Shown here: positions 49,147 to 63,909 of the stretch, piece by piece
Layout: each line of letters opens with the position of its first letter
How positions within the stretch are numbered: the first letter of the stretch is position 1
From: an uncultured Alphaproteobacteria bacterium
Lineage (GTDB): Bacteria; Pseudomonadota; Alphaproteobacteria; RF32; CAG-239
Direction: 5' to 3'
DNA length: 64,000 bases
Assembly (NCBI GenBank): GCA_944393685.1
Contig: CALYAW010000008.1
Coordinates: forward strand, 1-64,000
Program-made: the position numbers and the translations under genes
Notes under the pieces: generated by a model
The model's input: only the letters and a program-made list of their open reading frames with translations
Told to the model about the DNA's origin: nothing
Database searches by the model: none

Positions 49147-50451
49147 CTATTTCTTAGTCAAAGCATCTTCTTTGTACTTTTTAATTATATCATTCTTATT
49201 CTTCTGATCGATAATATCCATAGATCTTTTAATCCCCAATCTCTGTCTGCATTCCGCCGCCGATGAATTTTTAATTTTTTCTTGATATTTATTAAAGAAC
49301 GCGAACATTTCTTTATCTATCTCTGCATCTAAAGCATTAAATTCATTTTTAGCGTGACAAAATGAGTAATGATGAGACCAGCCTGTTATTTTTCCATTTA
49401 CAGTATTTAGCGTTTCAAAAAAACTTTTCCTTTTTATTGCTTTATCATTCAAAGCATCTGTTAGCAAATTACGTATTTCTGTTTTTATTTTGTTAAAAGC
49501 TTTTTGAGTAGGTTTTATCCGACATTTTGAAATATCAACACCTAAATATTCGATACAATTTTTTGCAAGATTAACACAATCTTTTGTTGTTTTATTTACA
49601 GAAATACCCAGCCCCAAAGCTTCCAAATCAGGCACTAATTGTTCTAAAAAAGCCTTTTCAACATCTTCTTTCGTTTTACCTAAGATAATAACATCATCTA
49701 TATATCTAAGATAGGTAATATTTGAATTTGAAAGCATTTTCAAATCTAAATCATACAAATAAATATTACCAAACAACGGTGATAAACAACTTCCTTGAGG
49801 AACTCCTTCTTCCGTATAAATATACTGGTAATACAAGTCTTCTCTATCTTTGATTGTATCTAAATTAGAAACCTCTAACTGAATAGCATTTTTTAACAAT
49901 TTCATAAAATCATCATCATGACAAAATTCAGCAATCCTATTTAAAACGCTATCACTCTTAATTTTAGTAAAAAATGATTTAATATCAGTTGCTTTTGCAA
50001 AAATATGCCCTTTATCTCTAAGAGAACAATATATTGTCTTTACTGCCATAGCCACATTTTTCTTTCTAAGGCCACCATAGCTCGCATCACAATTAAAATA
50101 TTTTTGCATTTTAGCATGATTTTGTAAGATATCTAACAAACACTTTTGTACAATTCTACCTTCAACCGTATTTAGGTTAACAACAGGCCTTTCACTTTTT
50201 TTGTCTTTCTTTTTAATTGGTGTTGCTTCTGAACTGAATTGAAAAGTATGTTGCCGCAATTGTTCTCTGAGATTTGCCAGACTTTGTTCTATATTTTTCT
50301 GAAAATGTTCGGCCTTGCCTTTCATCTTTTCATTTTTTGATGCAGATATGCGTGCCTGAACATGCCCCCACGCACTACGCAAATTATCCAACTTGCATAG
50401 CTCATTATAAAATTTTGTTCTTATTCGACTACATTTTTTCACTTTGGGCAC
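49147..50451 (-). CDS. Reverse transcriptase, group II-like, YIDD active site
   Basis: This 434-residue RNA-dependent DNA polymerase has RT motif A with D156 (FAKATDIKSFF), motif B GVPQGSCLSPLFGNIYL (residues 216-232), and motif C RYIDDVIIL with YIDD at 250-253. A thumb/X-like region, ITGWSHHYSFCH, lies near residue 355. Motif B and the X-like region resemble group II intron RTs, but I see no endonuclease domain and no intron domain V after the gene. It lacks the SQ motif of diversity-generating RTs. It starts with GTG 18 bp after a 91-residue ORF. Retron or defence RT functions cannot be excluded. Confidence 0.88.
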   Translation of the reverse strand: MPKVKKCSRIRTKFYNELCKLDNLRSAWGHVQARISASKNEKMKGKAEHFQKNIEQSLANLREQLRQHTFQFSSEATPIKKKDKKSERPVVNLNTVEGRIVQKCLLDILQNHAKMQKYFNCDASYGGLRKKNVAMAVKTIYCSLRDKGHIFAKATDIKSFFTKIKSDSVLNRIAEFCHDDDFMKLLKNAIQLEVSNLDTIKDREDLYYQYIYTEEGVPQGSCLSPLFGNIYLYDLDLKMLSNSNITYLRYIDDVIILGKTKEDVEKAFLEQLVPDLEALGLGISVNKTTKDCVNLAKNCIEYLGVDISKCRIKPTQKAFNKIKTEIRNLLTDALNDKAIKRKSFFETLNTVNGKITGWSHHYSFCHAKNEFNALDAEIDKEMFAFFNKYQEKIKNSSAAECRQRLGIKRSMDIIDQKNKNDIIKKYKEDALTKK

Positions 50452-50477: not shown

Positions 50478-50745
50478 GAAGGGGGACTGTAGCTTCAATT
50501 GGTGTAGTAGATATTATCTCTAGACCTATGTCAAGTTCTTGGACTTGTGTCCTTGTTCTTGACTTCTCGGATGTATTGACGGCTTGGGATATTTGGCTTC
50601 CTTCTGCTGTCTCTTTCCTTATTGAAACAGTCAAACTCTTTGCAAAGCGTTTCTTCTTTCGAAGTTGTGCTTTCAACTCTAAGATTCCGGAAATCTTTAT
50701 TAGACAAAATTTCCAAAACAATTCTTTTGTTTGCTTTAATTTCAT
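50470..50745 (-). CDS. 91-residue protein upstream of the reverse transcriptase
   Basis: This small basic, soluble ORF has a strong ribosome-binding site (GGAGG, 7 nt before ATG). The first 40 residues are Lys-rich helix (LKAQLRKKKRFAK). Residues about 40-86 are encoded by repeat copy A (IRKETAEGSQISQAVNTSEK and on). No family recognised. Position suggests an RT accessory protein, or that the RNA rather than the protein matters. Confidence 0.55.
   Translation of the reverse strand: MKLKQTKELFWKFCLIKISGILELKAQLRKKKRFAKSLTVSIRKETAEGSQISQAVNTSEKSRTRTQVQELDIGLEIISTTPIEATVPLHE
50485..50627. repeat. 143-bp direct repeat, copy A
   Basis: Base by base I find no difference from 50911-51053. Copy A forms the 3' part of the 91-residue ORF. 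Confidence 0.92.
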
Positions 50746-50899
50746 TTCTTTACCTCCAACTTGAGTTTAACACTTTTTGTTTTTAGTCAAGAACAAAATT
50801 TCAAGCTTCATTTCTCGCCAGCTTATCTCCAACTTCAAAGAAAATCTAGCAACCGCCTGCTGAGTTCCACTTCTGGATTGAGATACGGTTCTCTTCTTT

Positions 50900-50908
50900 A
50901 TGAATAGG
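50900..50908. repeat. 9-bp inverted repeat, right arm
   Basis: ATGAATAGG lies 2 bp before repeat copy B; it pairs with 50469-50477. Confidence 0.5.
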
Positions 50909-50910
50909 CT

Positions 50911-51053
50911 GACTGTAGCTTCAATTGGTGTAGTAGATATTATCTCTAGACCTATGTCAAGTTCTTGGACTTGTGTCCTTGTTCTTGACTTCTCGGATGT
51001 ATTGACGGCTTGGGATATTTGGCTTCCTTCTGCTGTCTCTTTCCTTATTGAAA
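50911..51053. repeat. 143-bp direct repeat, copy B
   Basis: A perfect copy of 50485-50627. The frame used in copy A is blocked here by a TAG just before the repeat (minus strand), so copy B is non-coding. The region 50746-51391 otherwise holds four copies of a 10-bp motif (51097-51233) and a terminator (51339-51372); I see no gene in it. Confidence 0.92.
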
Positions 51054-51096
51054 ACTACTGGCTTTAATTATGCATAAAAAATTTGGATATTCAATA

Positions 51097-51391: not shown

Positions 51392-52021
51392 TCACACTCT
51401 TGCATTTTCAACCGCATTTGCGAGCATATGTTCATTATAATTAAAATATCTTTGCGTGGTTGAGATGTTTTTATGATTAGCCAGCTTTTGCACCAAACAG
51501 ATATTCACGCCGGAATTTACCAATTTTGATACAAACAAATGTCGGCCGAGGTGGCTGGCTCCTTTTATGCTGAATTTGCGATAAACGGAACTAAACAAAC
51601 GGCTGATACTCACGCGATTGTAGGGTTTGTTTTGCTTTTGCGATGTAAATAAATAGCTCTCTTGGTTCAAATTGCTTCGTGTTTGTTGCAGATACTTCAA
51701 ATATTCGGCAAATTCCTTCTTAATCTGCGAGTTCAAATAGTAGGAACATTTATTTTTGCCTTTGTTCTTGTCATAATCTAGGCAAATGGCGTCTTTGACT
51801 TTCAGGGTTTCGGTATAAACATCCTTAACCTGAAGATAACAAAAATTGATAGAACGCATACCGTTCAGCGAGCATAAAAACATCATCCGGATTTGTTCGG
51901 CGTGTTTCATTCCGCTGATATAGGTCAAAATATCTTTAATTTTCTTATCATCTACAAAAACGTCATTTACCATTGATTTTACTCTTTTTAACTTATTTAT
52001 ACTCATTTTGAAAGGAGACAT
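51392..52021 (-). CDS. Short tyrosine recombinase (catalytic domain only)
   Basis: This 209-residue protein covers only the catalytic domain of the lambda-integrase family: Arg in LNGMRSINFCYLQ, Lys in the KGKNKCSYYL hairpin, H-x-x-R in SHLGRHLFV, His in LANHKNISTTQ and the nucleophile Tyr in QRYFNYNEH. The N-terminal core-binding domain is missing. All catalytic residues are present, so it may act on nearby repeats as an invertase/resolvase, or it may be an N-terminally truncated integrase. Confidence 0.8.
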   Translation of the reverse strand: MSPFKMSINKLKRVKSMVNDVFVDDKKIKDILTYISGMKHAEQIRMMFLCSLNGMRSINFCYLQVKDVYTETLKVKDAICLDYDKNKGKNKCSYYLNSQIKKEFAEYLKYLQQTRSNLNQESYLFTSQKQNKPYNRVSISRLFSSVYRKFSIKGASHLGRHLFVSKLVNSGVNICLVQKLANHKNISTTQRYFNYNEHMLANAVENARV

Positions 52022-54990: not shown

Positions 54991-55401
54991 ATGAGCAAAA
55001 GTAAAGCTACATTATCTATTACCGAACGTCTGTTATTGGACTTCGTCAAATACAAAACAAATAACAATCATAAATTTTTTATGGGGAATGATAAAATCGC
55101 CATGGCTTTAGGATTAACGGTAAATTCCGCCAAAGTGATGATAAACGGACTTATCCGTGAAGGGTATCTTATCAAATCAATGGATACCCACGGCCGCAGA
55201 ATATTAGAATTATCCGACAAACCATACTTAACCATCGCTTGTGTTGATTTAAGCAACGTTGATAAACGCATTATATTGCAAGAAGCCCTGAACTTTCAAC
55301 GAGACGCCGAATACTACCAAAAACAATACGAATTTGAAAAAGCACGAGCCGACAGACTTCTGTCCGAACTCACACAGTTGAAGCTAAGCAGAATAGGCTA
55401 A
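54991..55401 (+). CDS. Winged-helix DNA-binding protein beside the iterons
   Basis: This 136-residue protein has an N-terminal helix-turn-helix/winged-helix region (LSITERLLLDFVKYKTNNN, then NDKIAMALGLTVNSAKVMINGLIREGYL), a short linker and a C-terminal coiled coil (YYQKQYEFEKARADRLLSEL) suited to dimerisation. The palindromic iterons upstream are natural targets, so it may be a replication initiator fragment, copy-number regulator or autorepressor. AGGAG precedes the ATG. Its end overlaps the convergent hsdR stop by 4 bases. Confidence 0.7.
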   Translation: MSKSKATLSITERLLLDFVKYKTNNNHKFFMGNDKIAMALGLTVNSAKVMINGLIREGYLIKSMDTHGRRILELSDKPYLTIACVDLSNVDKRIILQEALNFQRDAEYYQKQYEFEKARADRLLSELTQLKLSRIG

Positions 55402-58400
55402 ACTCTTTTAGCTTCTTTATTTGGATTTTGTTTCAAATCATTGTATAAAGCAGCAAACAAAGCTTTTTTCATAAAATCCATCTTTTCACTATCTTGGAAC
55501 AAATCCTTAAAGAACTGGTCATTTTGTTCGTATCTACTAACCATTGTTTCAGTAAAGTTTTCGTTATAAAGCCCCTTGAATAGAGTTTTATTTCTTTCTT
55601 TTCCAGCCTCAACCAAACGTTCATCCTGTTTTAAGTCTTCCATCACTTGGCTTAAAACTTTATCTTGTCCTGAAAAATTAGTTCCAAATCTTTCATTAAA
55701 CTTTTCAATAATGGTTGAAAGAGGGGATTTCTCTTTTTTACTACTACCTGAACCACCCTTAGGGGCTGAAGTTGTTCCTACCTTATCTTCTAGAATAATT
55801 CTACCTTCAAAGGTCTTTTCGTTCTTATAATATTCAAGCAAAAGCTTATCATCAACGTTAATTGGAGAACCTTTTTCTCTCCTAATACATTTGATTAAAA
55901 ATTTAGCAAAAACATAAAACTTTTCTAATTCAGCATCAAACATTCTAATAACTTGAGTTACAAAAGAATACATTTTCAAATAATTGTTTAAAGATGTTCT
56001 AAATTGCTCTTGTTCTACTTCTTTCATAACCTTAAAACGGTCTATTGCTGGTTGTAAAATGCTTGATAATTTTCCTAAATCATCCATATTGGCGGCAGAA
56101 GCATAATAAATATCCGCAAATCTTTCTACTTCTTGATTTTGATAAATTTGCATATCATCTAAAATTGATTTAAGTTTATATAACTCATTGGGGTCAATTT
56201 CTTTATCTAAAATTGTAGCTTGGTAATATTGCTGAAAAGATTGTTTAATATCTTCTGCTTCATTAACAAAGTCCAAAACAAAGGTATCTGTTTTTCCTTG
56301 TGTTGTTCTGTTGAGGCGAGAAAGGGTTTGAACAGCTTTCACATCATTGAGCTTTTTATCAACAAACATTGTATGCAATAAAGGTTCATCAAATCCTGTC
56401 TGATATTTTTCTGCCACAATCAGAATATTAAAATCATTGTGAAAATATTCTGGTAACTGTGTCTCTTTTATATGCTCTCCATCGGCTGTAACATTTAATT
56501 TTGTTTCAGAATAAGTAATACCATTATCTGTTAAGTCTCCAGAAAAGGCAACTAAGACATTTATATCTTTATAATCATGGTCTGCAATATATTTTCTAAA
56601 TTCTTGTAAATAGCGAACAGCATGTAATCTAGACGGAGTTACCACCATTGCTTTAGCTTTTCCGCCAATTTTATTTTTGGTAATTTCGTTAAAATGCTCA
56701 ACCATAATGGCTGTCTTTTGGGCAATATTATGAGGATGCAATGTTTCAAAGCGAGAAATTGCTTTTGCTCCTTTAGATGTTTCCAGTTCAGGATCATCAG
56801 CTACTTTTTTGATTAGTTTGTAATAAGTCTTATATGTCGTATAATTTTGTAAGACATCTAAAATAAATCCCTCTTCAATAGCCTGTTGCATTGAATAGAT
56901 ATGAAAAGGTTTAAATGTTCCGTCTGGTTGTCTTTCTCCAAATCTATTCAAAGTTTTTGCTTTAGGAGTTGCCGTAAAAGCAAAAAAGGATAAATTTTTA
57001 TGATTTCCTTGTGCAGCCAATGTTTTAATCAGTAAATCTTCACTATCTTCTTTAGAAAGCTCTTTTTTACCTTCAATATCGGCATATTCTTTTAAAGTTT
57101 CTTCTAAATTTGCTAAGCCTTTAATTACTGTTCCGGCATCTTTGCCTGATTGTGAAGAATGGGCTTCATCAACAATAATGGCAAAGTTTTTATTATCTGA
57201 AGTAATATCTTTGTATATCAACGGAAACTTTTGCAATGTAGAAATAATGATTTTTGTATCACTATTGATAGCTTCCAAGAGCTCTTTTGAACCATTTTTC
57301 ACTTTTTTAACCACACCTGCTACATGGTCAAATTGATAGATTGTATCTTGTAACTGAGCATCTAAAACTCTTCTGTCGGTTAAAACAATAATAGAATTAA
57401 AGATATTTTCATCATGGTTGTCGTGAAGTCCGGCCAATTGATGAGCTAGCCAAGCAATAGAGTTAGATTTTCCTGAACCAGCCGAGTGTTGAATTAAATA
57501 ATTTTTTCCTACTCCGTTTGTCTTTACATCAGCTAATAGTTTGGTAACAACATCTAATTGATGATATCTTGGAAAAATCATAATTTCTTTGGTTTTGACA
57601 CCTTTTTTATCTTTTATAATTTGCAAATGCAGATATTTTTGCACAATTTCCATAAAACTATCTTTAGCAAGAACTTTCTCCCAAAGGTAAGATGTTGCAA
57701 AACCATTCGGATTAACAGGATTTCCTTTACCTCCAACATTTCCGGCTCCATTTGAACCTTGGTTAAAAGGTAGAAAATAAGTGCTGTCTCCTTGTAATTT
57801 GGTTGTCATATAAACATTATACAAATCCACGGCAAAATGAACCAATACTCTATTCTTAAATTCAAAAATGGCATCTTTTCCGGCTCTGTCAAATTTATAT
57901 TGAGAAATTGCATTGCTATAATCTTGTCCGGTAAATTGATTTTTTAATTCCATAGAAACTAACGGAATACCATTTAAAAACAAAACAATATCTATACTAT
58001 TTTCATTAGATAACGAATAGTGCAATTGGCGAGTGCAGTGTAGAATATTTTGATTATATAAATCAACGGCCTCTTGGTTGATATGGCTTTCTGGCTTAAA
58101 ATAACATAGATAAAACTTTACACCGCGGTCTTGGAAAGGTTTTCTCAAACATTTGAGCAAACCGTTATCCTTTATTGCCTTGCATAAGTTAGAAATAAAA
58201 CATTCTTCCGGATTAACAGGATAATGAGTTTGATAACGTTTCCAAGCCTTAGGCTGAGTTGTTTTAATAAAATTAAGCAAAGTTTCAGTATCAAGAGCCA
58301 ATTTTCGGTCAAAATTGGCTGGATTACCTTTTTGGTATCCTCCTTGGGTAATAAGAGAATGCTCAATTGCTTCTTCTAAATTTATTTCTTTTAAGTTATC

Positions 58401-58409
58401 TTCAGCCAT
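55398..58409 (-). CDS. hsdR: Type I restriction enzyme, R subunit
   Basis: This 1003-residue motor/nuclease subunit translocates and cuts unmethylated DNA. An N-terminal PD-(D/E)xK nuclease region (NSIDIVLFLNGIPLVSMELKN) is followed by the SF2 helicase: Walker A IQHSAGSGKSNSIAWL, DEAH box IIVDEAHSSQSG, motif III FFAFTATPKAK and motif VI-like VQTLSRLNRTTQGK. The C-terminal HsdR helical region is present. It is the last gene of the operon, behind two membrane proteins. Confidence 0.95.
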   Translation of the reverse strand: MAEDNLKEINLEEAIEHSLITQGGYQKGNPANFDRKLALDTETLLNFIKTTQPKAWKRYQTHYPVNPEECFISNLCKAIKDNGLLKCLRKPFQDRGVKFYLCYFKPESHINQEAVDLYNQNILHCTRQLHYSLSNENSIDIVLFLNGIPLVSMELKNQFTGQDYSNAISQYKFDRAGKDAIFEFKNRVLVHFAVDLYNVYMTTKLQGDSTYFLPFNQGSNGAGNVGGKGNPVNPNGFATSYLWEKVLAKDSFMEIVQKYLHLQIIKDKKGVKTKEIMIFPRYHQLDVVTKLLADVKTNGVGKNYLIQHSAGSGKSNSIAWLAHQLAGLHDNHDENIFNSIIVLTDRRVLDAQLQDTIYQFDHVAGVVKKVKNGSKELLEAINSDTKIIISTLQKFPLIYKDITSDNKNFAIIVDEAHSSQSGKDAGTVIKGLANLEETLKEYADIEGKKELSKEDSEDLLIKTLAAQGNHKNLSFFAFTATPKAKTLNRFGERQPDGTFKPFHIYSMQQAIEEGFILDVLQNYTTYKTYYKLIKKVADDPELETSKGAKAISRFETLHPHNIAQKTAIMVEHFNEITKNKIGGKAKAMVVTPSRLHAVRYLQEFRKYIADHDYKDINVLVAFSGDLTDNGITYSETKLNVTADGEHIKETQLPEYFHNDFNILIVAEKYQTGFDEPLLHTMFVDKKLNDVKAVQTLSRLNRTTQGKTDTFVLDFVNEAEDIKQSFQQYYQATILDKEIDPNELYKLKSILDDMQIYQNQEVERFADIYYASAANMDDLGKLSSILQPAIDRFKVMKEVEQEQFRTSLNNYLKMYSFVTQVIRMFDAELEKFYVFAKFLIKCIRREKGSPINVDDKLLLEYYKNEKTFEGRIILEDKVGTTSAPKGGSGSSKKEKSPLSTIIEKFNERFGTNFSGQDKVLSQVMEDLKQDERLVEAGKERNKTLFKGLYNENFTETMVSRYEQNDQFFKDLFQDSEKMDFMKKALFAALYNDLKQNPNKEAKRV

Positions 58410-58419
58410 TGGCGTTCTC

Positions 58420-58839
58420 CTAATCTTTTATGCTCAACTCTTTACGAATATAATCCTTAAATATCTCTAGTCTTGCCTGTGCTTTATCTGGCTCATCAAG
58501 CAGAGATTGTTGAATTTCATAAAATTTATTACAAATATTTTTTGAACCATAAATTTGCAAACTCATATTCAGATTATTTAGATTATCTAGCTCTTCTGGG
58601 CTGCAAATATTATCACATTTGACCCTTATTACTATATTTGCACATATTTGTAAAATTTTCGTATAAGTTTCTTCTCTCTTCCTTTTTAAGTGTAGCTTTT
58701 CTTCTCTTTTAGCTCTTAAATATTCTATAAAGAACGTAAAACCCGATGTTAAAATAGCTCCGACAATAACACCTACCAGAGAGAAAAATCCTCCCAAAAA
58801 AATATCCAAGTTTTCTTTTATAAACACACTCCAATCCAT
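58420..58839 (-). CDS. Membrane-anchored coiled-coil protein, paralogue 1
   Basis: This 139-residue protein has an N-terminal transmembrane helix (LGGFFSLVGVIVGAILTSGF), then the basic motif FIEYLRAKREEKLHLKRKREE and a helical cytoplasmic part ending KDYIRKELSIKD. It is a tandem paralogue of the next gene (58843-59238) and sits between hsdS and hsdR. Function unknown. Confidence 0.65.
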   Translation of the reverse strand: MDWSVFIKENLDIFLGGFFSLVGVIVGAILTSGFTFFIEYLRAKREEKLHLKRKREETYTKILQICANIVIRVKCDNICSPEELDNLNNLNMSLQIYGSKNICNKFYEIQQSLLDEPDKAQARLEIFKDYIRKELSIKD

Positions 58840-58842
58840 AAC

Positions 58843-59238
58843 TTAATCCTTTATACCGAGTTCTTTACGAATTTCTTTTGCTAAGCTATTAACTTGACCT
58901 TCTGTAATTCCGTAAAATGCCTCTTTTAGAGATTCTGAAAACCATTCTTCTATATGTTGAGATGCATATACTTTTACTTCTGGGCGTAATTTTTTATGTT
59001 TTTCCCAAAAGTCCTTTATTTCAATATCACTAGGAGTCTTGTTGTCTCTATGGAGTTCCGTATATTCACTTAATAAATCTAATAATTTAAGATATACTTC
59101 TTCTCTTTTTCTTTTTAGATATAATTTTTCTTCTCTTTTAGCTCTTAAATATTCTATAAACCAAGTAAATCCTGCTGTTAAAACAGCTCCGATAATAACA
59201 CCAAAGGTTTGAGATGAAAAGAAATCAGACCATGTCAT
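58843..59238 (-). CDS. Membrane-anchored coiled-coil protein, paralogue 2
   Basis: This 131-residue protein has the same plan as its neighbour: one transmembrane helix (FGVIIGAVLTAGFTWF), FIEYLRAKREEKLYLKRKREE, and a helical tail ending LAKEIRKELGIKD. A DNA stretch of about 33 bp encoding the shared motif is identical in the two genes, indicating a fairly recent duplication. It starts 1 bp after hsdS. Confidence 0.65.
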   Translation of the reverse strand: MTWSDFFSSQTFGVIIGAVLTAGFTWFIEYLRAKREEKLYLKRKREEVYLKLLDLLSEYTELHRDNKTPSDIEIKDFWEKHKKLRPEVKVYASQHIEEWFSESLKEAFYGITEGQVNSLAKEIRKELGIKD

Positions 59239-59239
59239 A

Positions 59240-60523
59240 CTAAGCCACCTCTTTTTTGCCGGTTACACATTCAAAGATTAAGGATTTTTTATATTCTTCC
59301 AATTTGCTAATAGTTTCTTCTTTTTGTTTAATTGCTTCATCTATTTGGTTGCATTTTTTATCTAAATACTCAGCAATTTCTTTCTGCTCAGAAAGAGGAG
59401 GAAAAGTATAAGGGATATTTTTAAAGTCATCGTATCCTAAATCCCATTGTCCTATCCGAATTCCTTCCGACAATCTACGATATTCCGGTATATAGGCTTT
59501 ATTTCTAAGTAAATAATGTATATAACGAGAAAAAACTTTTATTGTAAATTCACATACATAATAAGCTGGACTAACGATACCTTGATAATTTGATACAGCT
59601 ATTGAGCCTTGCCATGTTTTCATTTTATTGATAACGACGTCATTTTCTTCAACAAATTTATAATTTTCGGTATTCTCTGATGTTACGTTGAAATTATCTT
59701 CACGAGATGATTTGATGACCACCCCTAAATCTCTGTATAATGAAAGAACCTCTTCGTTTGGCTTGTTTTTAATGCCTTTTTGACGCAGAAAATGTTTTGC
59801 TTTTCTGATGTTCCAATGTTCGGGGATTGAGCCAATCCATTCAATTCCACTATCTTTCAATTTTACATTTGGGTTCAGACCTTTGGTTACGGTTTCTGTA
59901 ATCAAAGATTGTTTATATTCTTTGAGCTTTTCTATGATTTGCTTCTGATTATCTATAGCAGTATCAATCTTCTCACATCTTTTATCCAAATAATCCGCTA
60001 TTTTTTTCTGCTCAGAAAGAGGAGGTATGGGAATAAATATATTCTTGATTTGTTTTGTTGAAACTCCTCCTATTAAGCCACTCATACTCAAAAAGAAATC
60101 AGTCAAAAACGAACTACTTTGCAAAGAATAATACATATATTTAGATAAACACTTTCTTAATGACTTGAAACAACATAATTTATTAACAAAACAAACATCT
60201 CTCTCAGTAAAACCAATTTTTTTTCCAGCACTTCCACCTTCTATACATAACAAAGATGAATTTTTAGGAGCTATTTTAAAATTTTTATCCATACAAGAAA
60301 TAAACATTCCTGTATCATATGTAATGCTATTTGTACTTACATCAATGTCTTTTGTAGAAATATAAGGAACAGAATTATCTTGATATTGATAATTATCTTT
60401 TTCATTATCACTAATGCTATTCCCTGTGTATATTAGGCTATTATATTTTATTTTTGTTAATATCCAATTTTCAGGAATTTGACCAATCCATTCAATCCCG
60501 CTATCTTTCATCGCCCTAGTCAT
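59240..60523 (-). CDS. hsdS: Type I restriction enzyme, specificity subunit
   Basis: This 427-residue subunit has two target-recognition domains. Each begins with KDSGIEWIG-x-IPE-x-W (about residues 6 and 225) and each is followed by a conserved coiled-coil repeat (PPLSEQKKIADYLDKRCEKI and PPLSEQKEIAEYLDKKCNQI). It determines the bipartite DNA sequence recognised by the HsdM/HsdR complex. It starts at an ATG with GGAG, directly after the SIR2-like gene. Confidence 0.95.
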   Translation of the reverse strand: MTRAMKDSGIEWIGQIPENWILTKIKYNSLIYTGNSISDNEKDNYQYQDNSVPYISTKDIDVSTNSITYDTGMFISCMDKNFKIAPKNSSLLCIEGGSAGKKIGFTERDVCFVNKLCCFKSLRKCLSKYMYYSLQSSSFLTDFFLSMSGLIGGVSTKQIKNIFIPIPPLSEQKKIADYLDKRCEKIDTAIDNQKQIIEKLKEYKQSLITETVTKGLNPNVKLKDSGIEWIGSIPEHWNIRKAKHFLRQKGIKNKPNEEVLSLYRDLGVVIKSSREDNFNVTSENTENYKFVEENDVVINKMKTWQGSIAVSNYQGIVSPAYYVCEFTIKVFSRYIHYLLRNKAYIPEYRRLSEGIRIGQWDLGYDDFKNIPYTFPPLSEQKEIAEYLDKKCNQIDEAIKQKEETISKLEEYKKSLIFECVTGKKEVA

Positions 60524-61519
60524 TTATAATTCTCCAATTTTTGAAGAAAGAACTTTTTCCATAATAAATCGCTCTGTAACCTTATAATCTTTTTTATCCT
60601 TTCCTGTGTATTCATAACTTACATTATCATTATCTTCTCCAAAAACTTTATCATAATTTTTACGAAGTTCCATCTCTGTACCAGGATTTACAATAAAGAT
60701 TTTGGCATTACTTTCACGAAGTGCTGACTGAAACAAGAACCTTACCGATGTATCTGTTACAGGAAAAGAAAAACCTATTATATAAATTTCTTCAGCATTT
60801 TTTAACAGCTGTTCAGCTTCTTGCCATAGAAACCTTATGGCAACATGGTTATAAAAAGCATTTTTATCCATTACCGGTGGAATAATATATGGCTTCAATC
60901 CTGCTTTTGAAACCTCGTTTTCGTTCCCCGTTGAATAGTATATAGTATCACCGGCTGATATTCCTGCCCAAAACCAATTTGCTGATCCATGCAATTTCAA
61001 TATTGCAGGTGCATCTTCTATTTTATTTCTTCCCCACAGAGGCCCTTCTCTACTAGCAACAGAAAGCATCGGATATTTATAGAAATCCTCATATTTTGAG
61101 CCTTCAATTTTATCTTTTAGCAAATTCTCCAACAAAAGATCATAATTTAGAGTAATAAAATCATATTCTGTTCTATGCTCTGCTATATGCTTAGAAAAAC
61201 ATTCAAATTCTTCTGATATTGCCACAGTCTGTGAGCTTAGCTTTATAAACTTGTCTGATATAATTTTGCTTATTGCTGCATATAATGCTTGATTTGCATA
61301 TTTAGTTGTATCTGACTTCCATGGAAAATCGGTGGAAAGATATGTTAATAAAGCTTCAACATCCTTTTTAATTTCTGGTGCTATTTCTTCATAGTGCTTT
61401 GCTACAGACCCTTTTTCTAATTGCAAATTAACATTTTCTGTTAAATCTTTTAGCAATGGATAATTTGGATTGATAGCCTTTGAGAAACCGGCACCTAAAA
61501 AAAACACTTTCTTACCCAT
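60524..61519 (-). CDS. SIR2-like protein embedded in the hsd operon
   Basis: This 331-residue protein has SIR2-type Rossmann motifs: VFFLGAGFSKA at the N-terminus, DFITLNYDLLLENLL, ILKLHGSANWFW and IYIIGFSFPVTDTSVRFLF. SIR2-like proteins in defence systems usually cleave NAD+ once triggered, causing abortive infection. The zinc-finger of true sirtuin deacetylases is absent. It overlaps the preceding gene by 8 bases. The start at 61519 (AGGAG) is preferred over a longer frame. Confidence 0.85.
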   Translation of the reverse strand: MGKKVFFLGAGFSKAINPNYPLLKDLTENVNLQLEKGSVAKHYEEIAPEIKKDVEALLTYLSTDFPWKSDTTKYANQALYAAISKIISDKFIKLSSQTVAISEEFECFSKHIAEHRTEYDFITLNYDLLLENLLKDKIEGSKYEDFYKYPMLSVASREGPLWGRNKIEDAPAILKLHGSANWFWAGISAGDTIYYSTGNENEVSKAGLKPYIIPPVMDKNAFYNHVAIRFLWQEAEQLLKNAEEIYIIGFSFPVTDTSVRFLFQSALRESNAKIFIVNPGTEMELRKNYDKVFGEDNDNVSYEYTGKDKKDYKVTERFIMEKVLSSKIGEL

Positions 61520-62198
61520 TGTTTTTCTCCTGTTCTGCAATGAATTGAAGAAATTCTTGTCCTAATTGCGTGGTTATAGGAGCAGATAATCGTCCCCAGT
61601 TTAAAATAACTTTATCAATATGGTTGGTTGGATATATCAGTAATTCTTCTGTTAATTCTTTAATAATTATATGCTCAATTTCTCTCTGTTCATACGTGAC
61701 ATTTTTTGCTTCTTGGGAAAATCTTTCCCCTGATATGTGATATAGTATTGCTCCATGAATATTATGTTTTTTTATAAACGAAAAATACTTTGCAGGATTA
61801 TTAAAATACATTAGTGTTTCAATATGTGCCAATGTATATCTTCTCAGCATATTCAAAAATATATGGGTTTTCATATTATCAATATTTTCATTTTTGATAG
61901 CATTGATGACAGCATTAATGTACAAACCCACTTTATCTTCTTCTATATCTTCCAATGCACCCCTTTGTGCCGTTGCTAATATATTGGCAAAATTAGACAT
62001 ATCCCTTATTTTTTGTTCCATATCTTGGTCTAATTTAGATAATCTTTTTATCGTTTCCTCTTTCCACAGCTCTATACGTTTTTGCCAATTGGAATTTACA
62101 TAATCTTCAAAAAATTTTGAAAATGCAGAAACGACTGGCATCTGGCTTAACAGAGCCAAAGCTCCCATTTTACCAATTTCTTTTACTTCCTTACTCAT
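61512..62198 (-). CDS. Helical protein of unknown function paired with SIR2
   Basis: This 228-residue, mainly helical protein has an N-terminal hydrophobic stretch (GALALLSQMPVVSAF) and a patterned core (SNFANILATAQRGALEDIEE, AVINAIKNENID, LRRYTLAHIETLMYFNNP). That resembles an uncharacterised helical family I recall near defence genes; the family is not named here because I cannot verify it. It starts 1 bp after hsdM and overlaps the SIR2 gene, so it is likely its sensor or partner. Confidence 0.6.
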   Translation of the reverse strand: MSKEVKEIGKMGALALLSQMPVVSAFSKFFEDYVNSNWQKRIELWKEETIKRLSKLDQDMEQKIRDMSNFANILATAQRGALEDIEEDKVGLYINAVINAIKNENIDNMKTHIFLNMLRRYTLAHIETLMYFNNPAKYFSFIKKHNIHGAILYHISGERFSQEAKNVTYEQREIEHIIIKELTEELLIYPTNHIDKVILNWGRLSAPITTQLGQEFLQFIAEQEKNNG

Positions 62199-62199
62199 C

Positions 62200-63909
62200 T
62201 TAAAACAATCCCTTTAAGGTTTGTTCCAAATCTTTTTGTAAAGTCATAATTTCTGATAATACCTCATCAGATGAGCGAGGTGGAACATATTTGTAAAAAT
62301 ATCTTGTAAATGGAATTTCATAGCCAATTTTAGTTTTGCTTTCATCTATCCAAGCATCCGGAGCAAAAGGAATCACTTCTCGCTGAAAATATTCATGAAT
62401 ATCTTCTGTTAAAGGCACATTTTCTGTATCTCTTAATTCAGAATCCGCTACAGGCTTACCTTTTTTCAAGATAATTTCGCCATTTTCATCCCTTTGCGGA
62501 CGTTCAACTACAATCTTTGCATAGCCAAAGTCTTCGTTATTAAAAATCTTACTGATTTCATTTTCTTTGAAATCTCCGTAAATTTGTGTGATTTTATCTA
62601 TATACTTTTGCGGAATGTCGTTTCTCTTATTTCCTAATGATTTACGGCGTTTTTCATATAGTCCATTAGCATTTATAAGTTGAACCTTGCCTTTTCTTTC
62701 TACAGGCTTTTTGTTGTTAAATACCCAAATATAGGTTGCAATGCCGGTATTATAAAACAAATCATTAGGTAGAGCTACGATAGCTTCTAACAAATCATTT
62801 TCTAATATATATTTGCGTATTTCTGATTGTCCGCTTCCGGCATCACCACTAAATAAAGGAGAACCATTTTGAATAATAGCAACTTTTGAACCTTCCGGTC
62901 TCATTTTGTGGATTGCTGTTTGCAAAAAGAGCATTTGCCCATCACTAATAGGCGGTAATCCAGCACCAAAACGCCCTGCAAAACCCAATTTTGCTTCTTT
63001 TTCCACGGCGTTTTTATCATTTTTCCATTCCCTACCAAAAGGCGGATTAGATAATATATAATCAAACTTATCATCTGCAAATTGGTCATCAGATAATGTA
63101 TTGCCGCATTTAATATTGTTTGCATCATTTCCTTTAATGAGCATATCTCCTTTACAAATAGCAAAGGTTTGGTCATTTATCTCTTGTCCATAACAAATAA
63201 GCTTTGCGTTTTTGTTTAGCCTTGAAAGATATTCTTCTGCAACAGAAAGCATTCCACCCGTTCCTACGGTTGGGTCATATAGTGTTTTTGCAACATTTCC
63301 GGTCAATATACTATTATCATTATTGAAAAGTATATTAACCATGAGTTCTATGACTTCTCTTGGGGTATAGTGTTGTCCAGCATCTTCGTTATGAGCTTCT
63401 GAAAAGCGGCGAATAATTTCTTCAAAAATATATCCCATTTCCAAGTTGCTAACTTTTGAAGGATGTAAGTCAGCATCTGGTGTATTAAACTTTTTTATAA
63501 CCATATAAAGTAAGTCATGTGAAGCTAATCTTTCAATATGGCGTTCAAATTCAAAATGCTCTAAAATATCTTTTACATTATCGGAAAAATCATTCAAATA
63601 TGAACGGAAATTTATTTCAATACTGTCAGGAGCGTCTAATAATCGTTTGAAATTAAATTTACTTGTATTGTAAAACGGATGTCCGCTTGCCTTTTTTAAA
63701 AAGATATCTTTCATCGGCAAATTGCTAACTTCAGGCAATTTTTTTAATACAGCTTCCTTGGTATCTTCCAAAATACAATCAAAACGCTTAATAACCATCA
63801 TTGGCAAAATAACTTCGCCATATTCATGAGGTTTATATGTTCCGGTCAAAACATCGGCTATTGACCAGATTAAATTTGCTTTTTGATTGATATTTCCGTT
63901 TATAGACAT
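62200..63909 (-). CDS. hsdM: Type I restriction enzyme, methyltransferase subunit
   Basis: This 569-residue N6-adenine methyltransferase has the HsdM N-terminal domain, the SAM-binding motif DPTVGTGGM (residues 212-220) and the catalytic NPPF (288-291). QHYTPREVIELM is the usual HsdM signature before the SAM motif. It protects host DNA and is needed for restriction. It is the first gene of the operon, with AGAGGAATT upstream of the ATG. Confidence 0.97.
   Translation of the reverse strand: MSINGNINQKANLIWSIADVLTGTYKPHEYGEVILPMMVIKRFDCILEDTKEAVLKKLPEVSNLPMKDIFLKKASGHPFYNTSKFNFKRLLDAPDSIEINFRSYLNDFSDNVKDILEHFEFERHIERLASHDLLYMVIKKFNTPDADLHPSKVSNLEMGYIFEEIIRRFSEAHNEDAGQHYTPREVIELMVNILFNNDNSILTGNVAKTLYDPTVGTGGMLSVAEEYLSRLNKNAKLICYGQEINDQTFAICKGDMLIKGNDANNIKCGNTLSDDQFADDKFDYILSNPPFGREWKNDKNAVEKEAKLGFAGRFGAGLPPISDGQMLFLQTAIHKMRPEGSKVAIIQNGSPLFSGDAGSGQSEIRKYILENDLLEAIVALPNDLFYNTGIATYIWVFNNKKPVERKGKVQLINANGLYEKRRKSLGNKRNDIPQKYIDKITQIYGDFKENEISKIFNNEDFGYAKIVVERPQRDENGEIILKKGKPVADSELRDTENVPLTEDIHEYFQREVIPFAPDAWIDESKTKIGYEIPFTRYFYKYVPPRSSDEVLSEIMTLQKDLEQTLKGLF

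Follow-up and report, generated by a model that had tools for sequence, protein, structure and literature searches.

The type I restriction operon of an uncultured alphaproteobacterium holds, between hsdS and hsdR, two small genes in tandem, here called A and B, whose products are paralogues of one another and are each predicted to consist of a single N-terminal membrane helix followed by a cytosolic helical bundle. Our leading interpretation, to which we give an even chance, is that A and B form an accessory defence module that is built into the type I operon and acts at the membrane.

The operon lies on the minus strand of the window (the whole 64,000-nucleotide stretch that was analyzed). 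Its genes follow one another almost without gaps in the order hsdM (62200..63909; methylase subunit, 569 aa), a gene for a 228-aa accessory protein of no assigned function (61512..62198), a SIR2-like accessory gene (60524..61540; 338 aa; Pfam SIR2_2, 9.6e-7), hsdS (59240..60523; specificity subunit, 427 aa), A (58843..59238; 131 aa), B (58420..58839; 139 aa), and hsdR (55398..58409; restriction subunit, 1003 aa); the three hsd assignments are supported by Pfam. As the sequence-only reading had it, A and B are tandem open reading frames in the hsdS-hsdR interval. Of the two, A lies nearer to hsdS and begins 1 nt past it, and the gaps between hsdS and A, A and B, and B and hsdR, all codirectional, are 1, 3, and 10 nt.

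The 228-aa protein (61512-62198) has relatives in the same place in genomes G020, G021, and G076. It belongs to an unnamed family of some 214-231 aa (L010 7285-8647, L011 10819-11514, and L052 8175-8819, besides the window) that is encoded directly behind hsdM in one or two copies, with 39-69% identity across loci and a next gene that varies from locus to locus. In three other loci (L091 7080-7556, L092 4363-5154, and L093 5810-6745) the open reading frames that follow hsdM have nearly the same first 23 residues (LSSPTTCK...) and then continue as different genes, which looks like an exchange of accessory genes downstream of a constant leader. We also note a phage-type integrase (Pfam match) near the hsd operon at 51392-52021, a sign that the operon may be part of a mobile island; a frame at L011 160-789 shares its start with this integrase, and an integrase-like frame is found at L014 15239-15826. 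At 49147-50451 and 50528-51067, a reverse transcriptase (RVT_1, with a group II maturase domain) is adjoined by two near-identical short frames (MSSSWTCVLVLDFSD...), which are perhaps repeated element ends.

How closely are A and B related? Protein alignment gave 41% identity over 128 positions (E 8e-26); here, and in the Pfam, NCBIfam, and PADLOC searches, B was entered without its first Met (138 aa). The two are thus true paralogues, as had been proposed from the sequence, but their likeness is uneven: helix and linker are 69% identical, the cytosolic domains only 24%, so that B combines an A-like helix and linker with a different cytosolic domain. A shared membrane module with differing heads is the pattern that would be expected of partners in one complex, and it leads to a specific and testable idea of how the tandem pair might work together. 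At the DNA level, the previously noticed identity of about 33 bp proved to be an exact shared run whose length is 35 bp. Eleven codons (FIEYLRAKREE) are the same in both genes; given the same residues, the chance of this, computed from the codon usage of 41 long open reading frames of the window, is about 1e-4, which disfavours independent codon choice. A recent conversion inside this locus does not follow from this, because over that region B is about equally like the A gene of G021 and G076 (29-bp run; 83% over 111 bp). Selection on the DNA might also account for the run.

Each protein has one hydrophobic stretch, near its N-terminus, with a Kyte-Doolittle maximum of 1.60 in A, which is borderline, and of 2.35 in B. 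In both, positive charge lies on the C-terminal side of this stretch, which suggests an N-out/C-in orientation. AlphaFold2 models, built from shallow alignments of seven and eight sequences, are helical for both proteins (mean pLDDT 74.3 and pTM 0.63 for A, 75.9 and 0.54 for B). In each, a long helix comes first and is followed by three shorter ones, and confidence is lowest in the N-terminal membrane part. The predictions thus bear out the single transmembrane helix (with borderline hydropathy in A) and the helical tails of the sequence-only reading, the tails being probably on the cytosolic side. Foldseek searches of two structural libraries yielded no match at E < 0.001 for A or B. The VIA-align lists consist mostly of generic helical bundles, and we dismissed their GPCR and chemoreceptor rows as matches of that kind.

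Searches of Pfam, NCBIfam, and PADLOC likewise gave nothing beyond weak noise for A and B, and no enzymatic or pore domain was recognized in them by domain and profile searches that included Pfam, PADLOC, and PHROG. Among the known defence proteins of PADLOC-DB 2.0.0, no model matches B, and a match of A to Cas2b (E 0.02, over 23 residues only) was taken as chance. Weak and mutually inconsistent PHROG and Pfam profile matches of the family were left unused, and weak matches at E 0.003 to 0.05, mostly pieces of other frames or frames bearing stops, were not counted as relatives. No family member was found in plasmids (tblastn with A and the G041 and G108 proteins), in phages (A, B, and the G634 protein), or in IMG/VR (A, A1, the G634 protein, and the Calothrix protein); phage matches to the G041 protein were chance only.

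Close homologues were found in the same bacterial family. A search with A matched 6 of the 152 genomes, the window's own included, at E<=0.001, and an eight-sequence profile recovered the same six among 153 genomes at the order level. In five of the six, again counting the window, a membrane gene sits between hsdS and hsdR. The reading that A and B are linked to hsd genes was to be given up if homologues proved to be scattered at random with no association with hsd or defence genes; such scatter does not occur. Because the cassettes of G021 and G076 are nearly identical to each other and close to that of the window, these cases amount to about three independent type I loci. In G021 and G076 the order is hsdM, accessory genes, hsdS, A, a second membrane gene (151 aa), and hsdR; in G041 it is hsdM, a 302-aa gene, hsdS, a gene for a PIN protein, the membrane gene, and hsdR; and in G108 it is hsdM, a SIR2-like gene, hsdS, the membrane gene, a GmrSD protein gene, and hsdR. 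The sixth homologue, that of G101, stands alone: its contig, 3.8 kb long, bears no hsd genes. (Downstream of hsdR in G041, at L012 4251-6198, are patatin-like and nucleotidyltransferase-like frames that by eye resemble a CBASS pair.)

The membrane gene thus remains linked to the hsd genes, whereas the accessories around it vary: SIR2 in both the window and G108, PIN in G041, GmrSD in G108. This bears on the idea that A and B are a regulator or immunity pair that restrains a further accessory product encoded in the operon, for example the SIR2-like protein. SIR2 and a membrane gene do occur together in both the window and G108, where the SIR2-like proteins are 59% identical, but the membrane genes of G021, G076, and G041 are in operons that by eye contain no SIR2-like gene (three genes there gave no SIR2 match), and we consider a restraining role very unlikely.

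Comparison of the window with G021 and G076 revealed that the hsdM-hsdR region is a mosaic with exchange. At the DNA level, hsdR together with the last 42 nt of B is about 98% identical, those 42 nt being identical or about 98% identical to the end of the second membrane gene; A and the hsdS tail are 89.5% identical, and the hsdM end of the operon is 91-93% identical. The genomes differ in the recognition domains of hsdS and over most of the hsdM-hsdS interval, and B can be aligned only at its end and over a 111-bp stretch that is 83% identical to A of those genomes. At the protein level, B and the second membrane gene product of G076 are 42% identical in helix and linker and 33% in the cytosolic domain; the nearest relative of the G076 protein is that of G108 (53% in the cytosolic domain).

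Between A and its 82%-identical relative in G076, dN is 0.097 and dS 0.326 (dN/dS about 0.30), as compared with dN 0.003 and dS 0.070 for hsdR (about 0.04) and dN 0.004 and dS 0.170 for hsdM (about 0.02). A is therefore coding and under purifying selection, although less strictly so than the enzyme subunits. For the hsdS tail the values are dN 0.020 and dS 0.357; the match in synonymous divergence looks as if A and the hsdS tail had been exchanged together.

We next consider how often the hsdS-hsdR slot is filled. PF04313 is present in 39 of the 152 family genomes, at 46 places, of which 45 were surveyed (a place at a contig end, G021:C16, was left out). Fourteen of the 45 had no hsdS on the stretch and two had no recognized hsdR; these were dropped, leaving 29 loci in which hsdS is followed by hsdR on one strand, and a slot was scored as filled if at least one open reading frame of at least 80 aa lay between. 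The slot is filled in 18 of the 29 loci and is occupied by the A/B family in five. In 11, counting those five, some slot gene exceeds the hydrophobicity threshold; these counts are rough, and the 11 probably include false entries such as the 317-aa protein of L090. A membrane gene inside a restriction operon had been called unusual, which holds for the A/B family and not for insertion itself. The gaps flanking hsdS include genes whose products, judged by eye, resemble HEPN/MNT pairs and Fic, RhuM, and TIR-like proteins. Thus most type I loci of the family with a clear hsdS-hsdR order hold extra genes and are a useful hunting ground for defence genes. Because A and B are encoded in a slot into which accessory anti-virus genes often insert, they are probably a defence add-on.

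On plasmids, 758 records with a related HsdR were found and ten loci were opened; judged by annotation, none of the ten contains a member of the A/B family. Six have a slot without other genes. In Selenomonas the slot encodes a RhuM protein, in Ketogulonicigenium an ATPase and an HNH protein, and in Salipiger two proteins that look soluble together with an annotated restriction endonuclease; in an E. faecalis locus no annotated hsdS adjoins hsdR.

These surveys bear on a second possible role, that of a membrane tether, in which A and B would bind HsdMSR and keep the complex at the inner membrane, the point of phage DNA entry. A single predicted helix with a cytosolic domain would suit a tether, as would the association of the genes with a single HsdR subfamily: of the 152 genomes, 7 have HsdR homologues at E<=1e-30, and a membrane gene accompanies five of the seven. 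Membrane association of classical type I enzymes also counts in favour of a tether, although our literature search found no report of it. But related enzymes manage without A and B: in the remaining two genomes the slot is empty (G020) or encodes another protein, of 223 aa (G015), and the ten plasmid loci, by annotation, add none of the family. Moreover, HsdR of G108 is 71% identical to that of the window, yet its membrane protein is only 29% identical to A. Because related systems lack these genes and because A evolves far faster than hsdM and hsdR, as judged by the dN/dS values above, we regard a tether as quite improbable; a membrane effector fits better.

Further afield, the 398 genomes of the phylum yielded one convincing distant relative, in G634 (E 1.6e-8 in a profile search; 2e-9 with Z 5000); matches in G608 and G416 (a short N-terminal stretch) and at a second place in G634 (E 0.0085) were not counted as relatives. 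Among 48 genomes of the class of G634, only G634 itself was recovered. The profile similarity spans the cytosolic domain of the A/B family, and the superfamily is marked by a transmembrane helix followed by KxxxxY-like, [YW][AG]S, and RK[DE]LG motifs. The G634 gene is at a contig edge, where no adjoining restriction gene was recognized by eye. A protein encoded on a Calothrix plasmid is 30.5% identical to that of G634 (E 5e-13). In the operon at L084 4072-11716, its gene comes after an Eco57I/TaqI_C methylase and a 130-aa open reading frame and before an SNF2/PLD helicase, which makes a second restriction-like setting; this copy is interrupted by an in-frame stop, and the profile match that ties it directly to the window's family is weak (E 0.0024). 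Outside the bacterial family, the association with restriction thus rests on one case in favour (Calothrix) and one that is mute (G634).

Might the family, then, be a mere passenger, mobile or decaying, that lands in the slot and has no role in restriction? The orphan copy in G101, the broken distant copy in Calothrix, and the character of the slot as a recombination hotspot speak for such a passenger. Against this, A is under purifying selection (dN/dS about 0.30), the reading frames are open in all nine close family genes, and the family is rare elsewhere, a class sample of 385 genomes having returned the window's own genes only. We judge a passenger unlikely.

We return to a defence module that acts at the membrane. 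The shared helix and linker would let A and B assemble into one membrane complex, and the differing cytosolic heads would respond to a signal from a phage or to the condition of the restriction enzyme. Once triggered, the complex might damage or depolarize the membrane, so that growth would stop when restriction has been evaded. Membrane damage by A and B is the analogical part of this scheme. In its most specific form, a two-headed A-B complex, joined by the shared helix and linker and triggered by inhibition or engagement of the type I enzyme, would permeabilize the membrane as a Csx28-like effector coupled to DNA restriction rather than to CRISPR; this version we put forward as a long shot. 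Arguing against a defence module at the membrane is that no enzymatic or pore domain was recognized and that no structure matched below E 0.001. The G101 copy, on a short contig free of hsd genes, the stop and weak link of the Calothrix copy, and the number of independent type I cases, only about three, also count against it.

Csx28, a small membrane-anchored accessory protein of the type VI-B CRISPR system, serves in nucleic-acid-targeting defence (PMC11014256, PMC13153721). Like A and B as predicted, it has an N-terminal membrane helix and a cytosolic helical domain; its hallmark is an octameric pore that depolarizes the membrane. PbuCsx28 (8gi1_A) does appear in the structural list for A (Z 6.9, rmsd 4.8, 112 aligned), at the noise level of helical bundles and tied with unrelated ones; it is missing from the list for B, and no sequence match of Csx28 to A or B was found. 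HEPN domains, whose fold that of Csx28 resembles, have a conserved R-x4-6-H motif. The invariant columns of seven members of the A/B family contain no histidine that could belong to it, and we treat the resemblance of A to Csx28 as an analogy only.

Closer in genetic position is PrrC, whose gene occupies the hsdS-hsdR slot of the EcoprrI type I operon (PMC3874165) and for which a guard logic has been proposed (PMC3874165, PMC12707154). The prrC gene resembles A and B as an accessory gene inside a type I operon. PrrC, however, is an anticodon nuclease, whereas in A and B, which are predicted to be membrane proteins, no nuclease or ATPase domain was recognized; indeed, the hallmark NTPase and anticodon nuclease domains of PrrC and RloC are absent from both (131 and 139 aa). 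The layout of A and B may be guard-like, as with prrC, with the membrane rather than tRNA as the likely target.

Two-gene inserts are also known. TgvAB, two genes that act together inside the type I operon of V. cholerae VPI-2, have been compared in position to RloF between hsdR and hsdS (PMC11411939); they are a GmrSD-like type IV restriction system, and A and B show no domain of that kind. DarTG2, in the RRDM island of EPEC, is a two-gene module between hsdS and hsdR, a site described as a potential recombination hotspot (PMC12255303); it is a toxin-antitoxin pair, whereas A and B are predicted membrane proteins without a recognized toxin domain. A review treats accessory genes coupled to restriction systems more generally (PMC12707154). 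In the literature cited here, the type I add-ons are soluble enzymes or toxins, and a word-matching search of open-licence papers turned up no type I operon described as encoding a membrane-anchored pair. A membrane-anchored add-on, if true, would tie DNA restriction to a membrane response and would offer a small two-gene test system. That defence genes make use of the hsdS-hsdR slot is already known from these sources; what is new, as far as we searched, is the A/B family, its membrane anchoring, and its tandem, two-headed arrangement.
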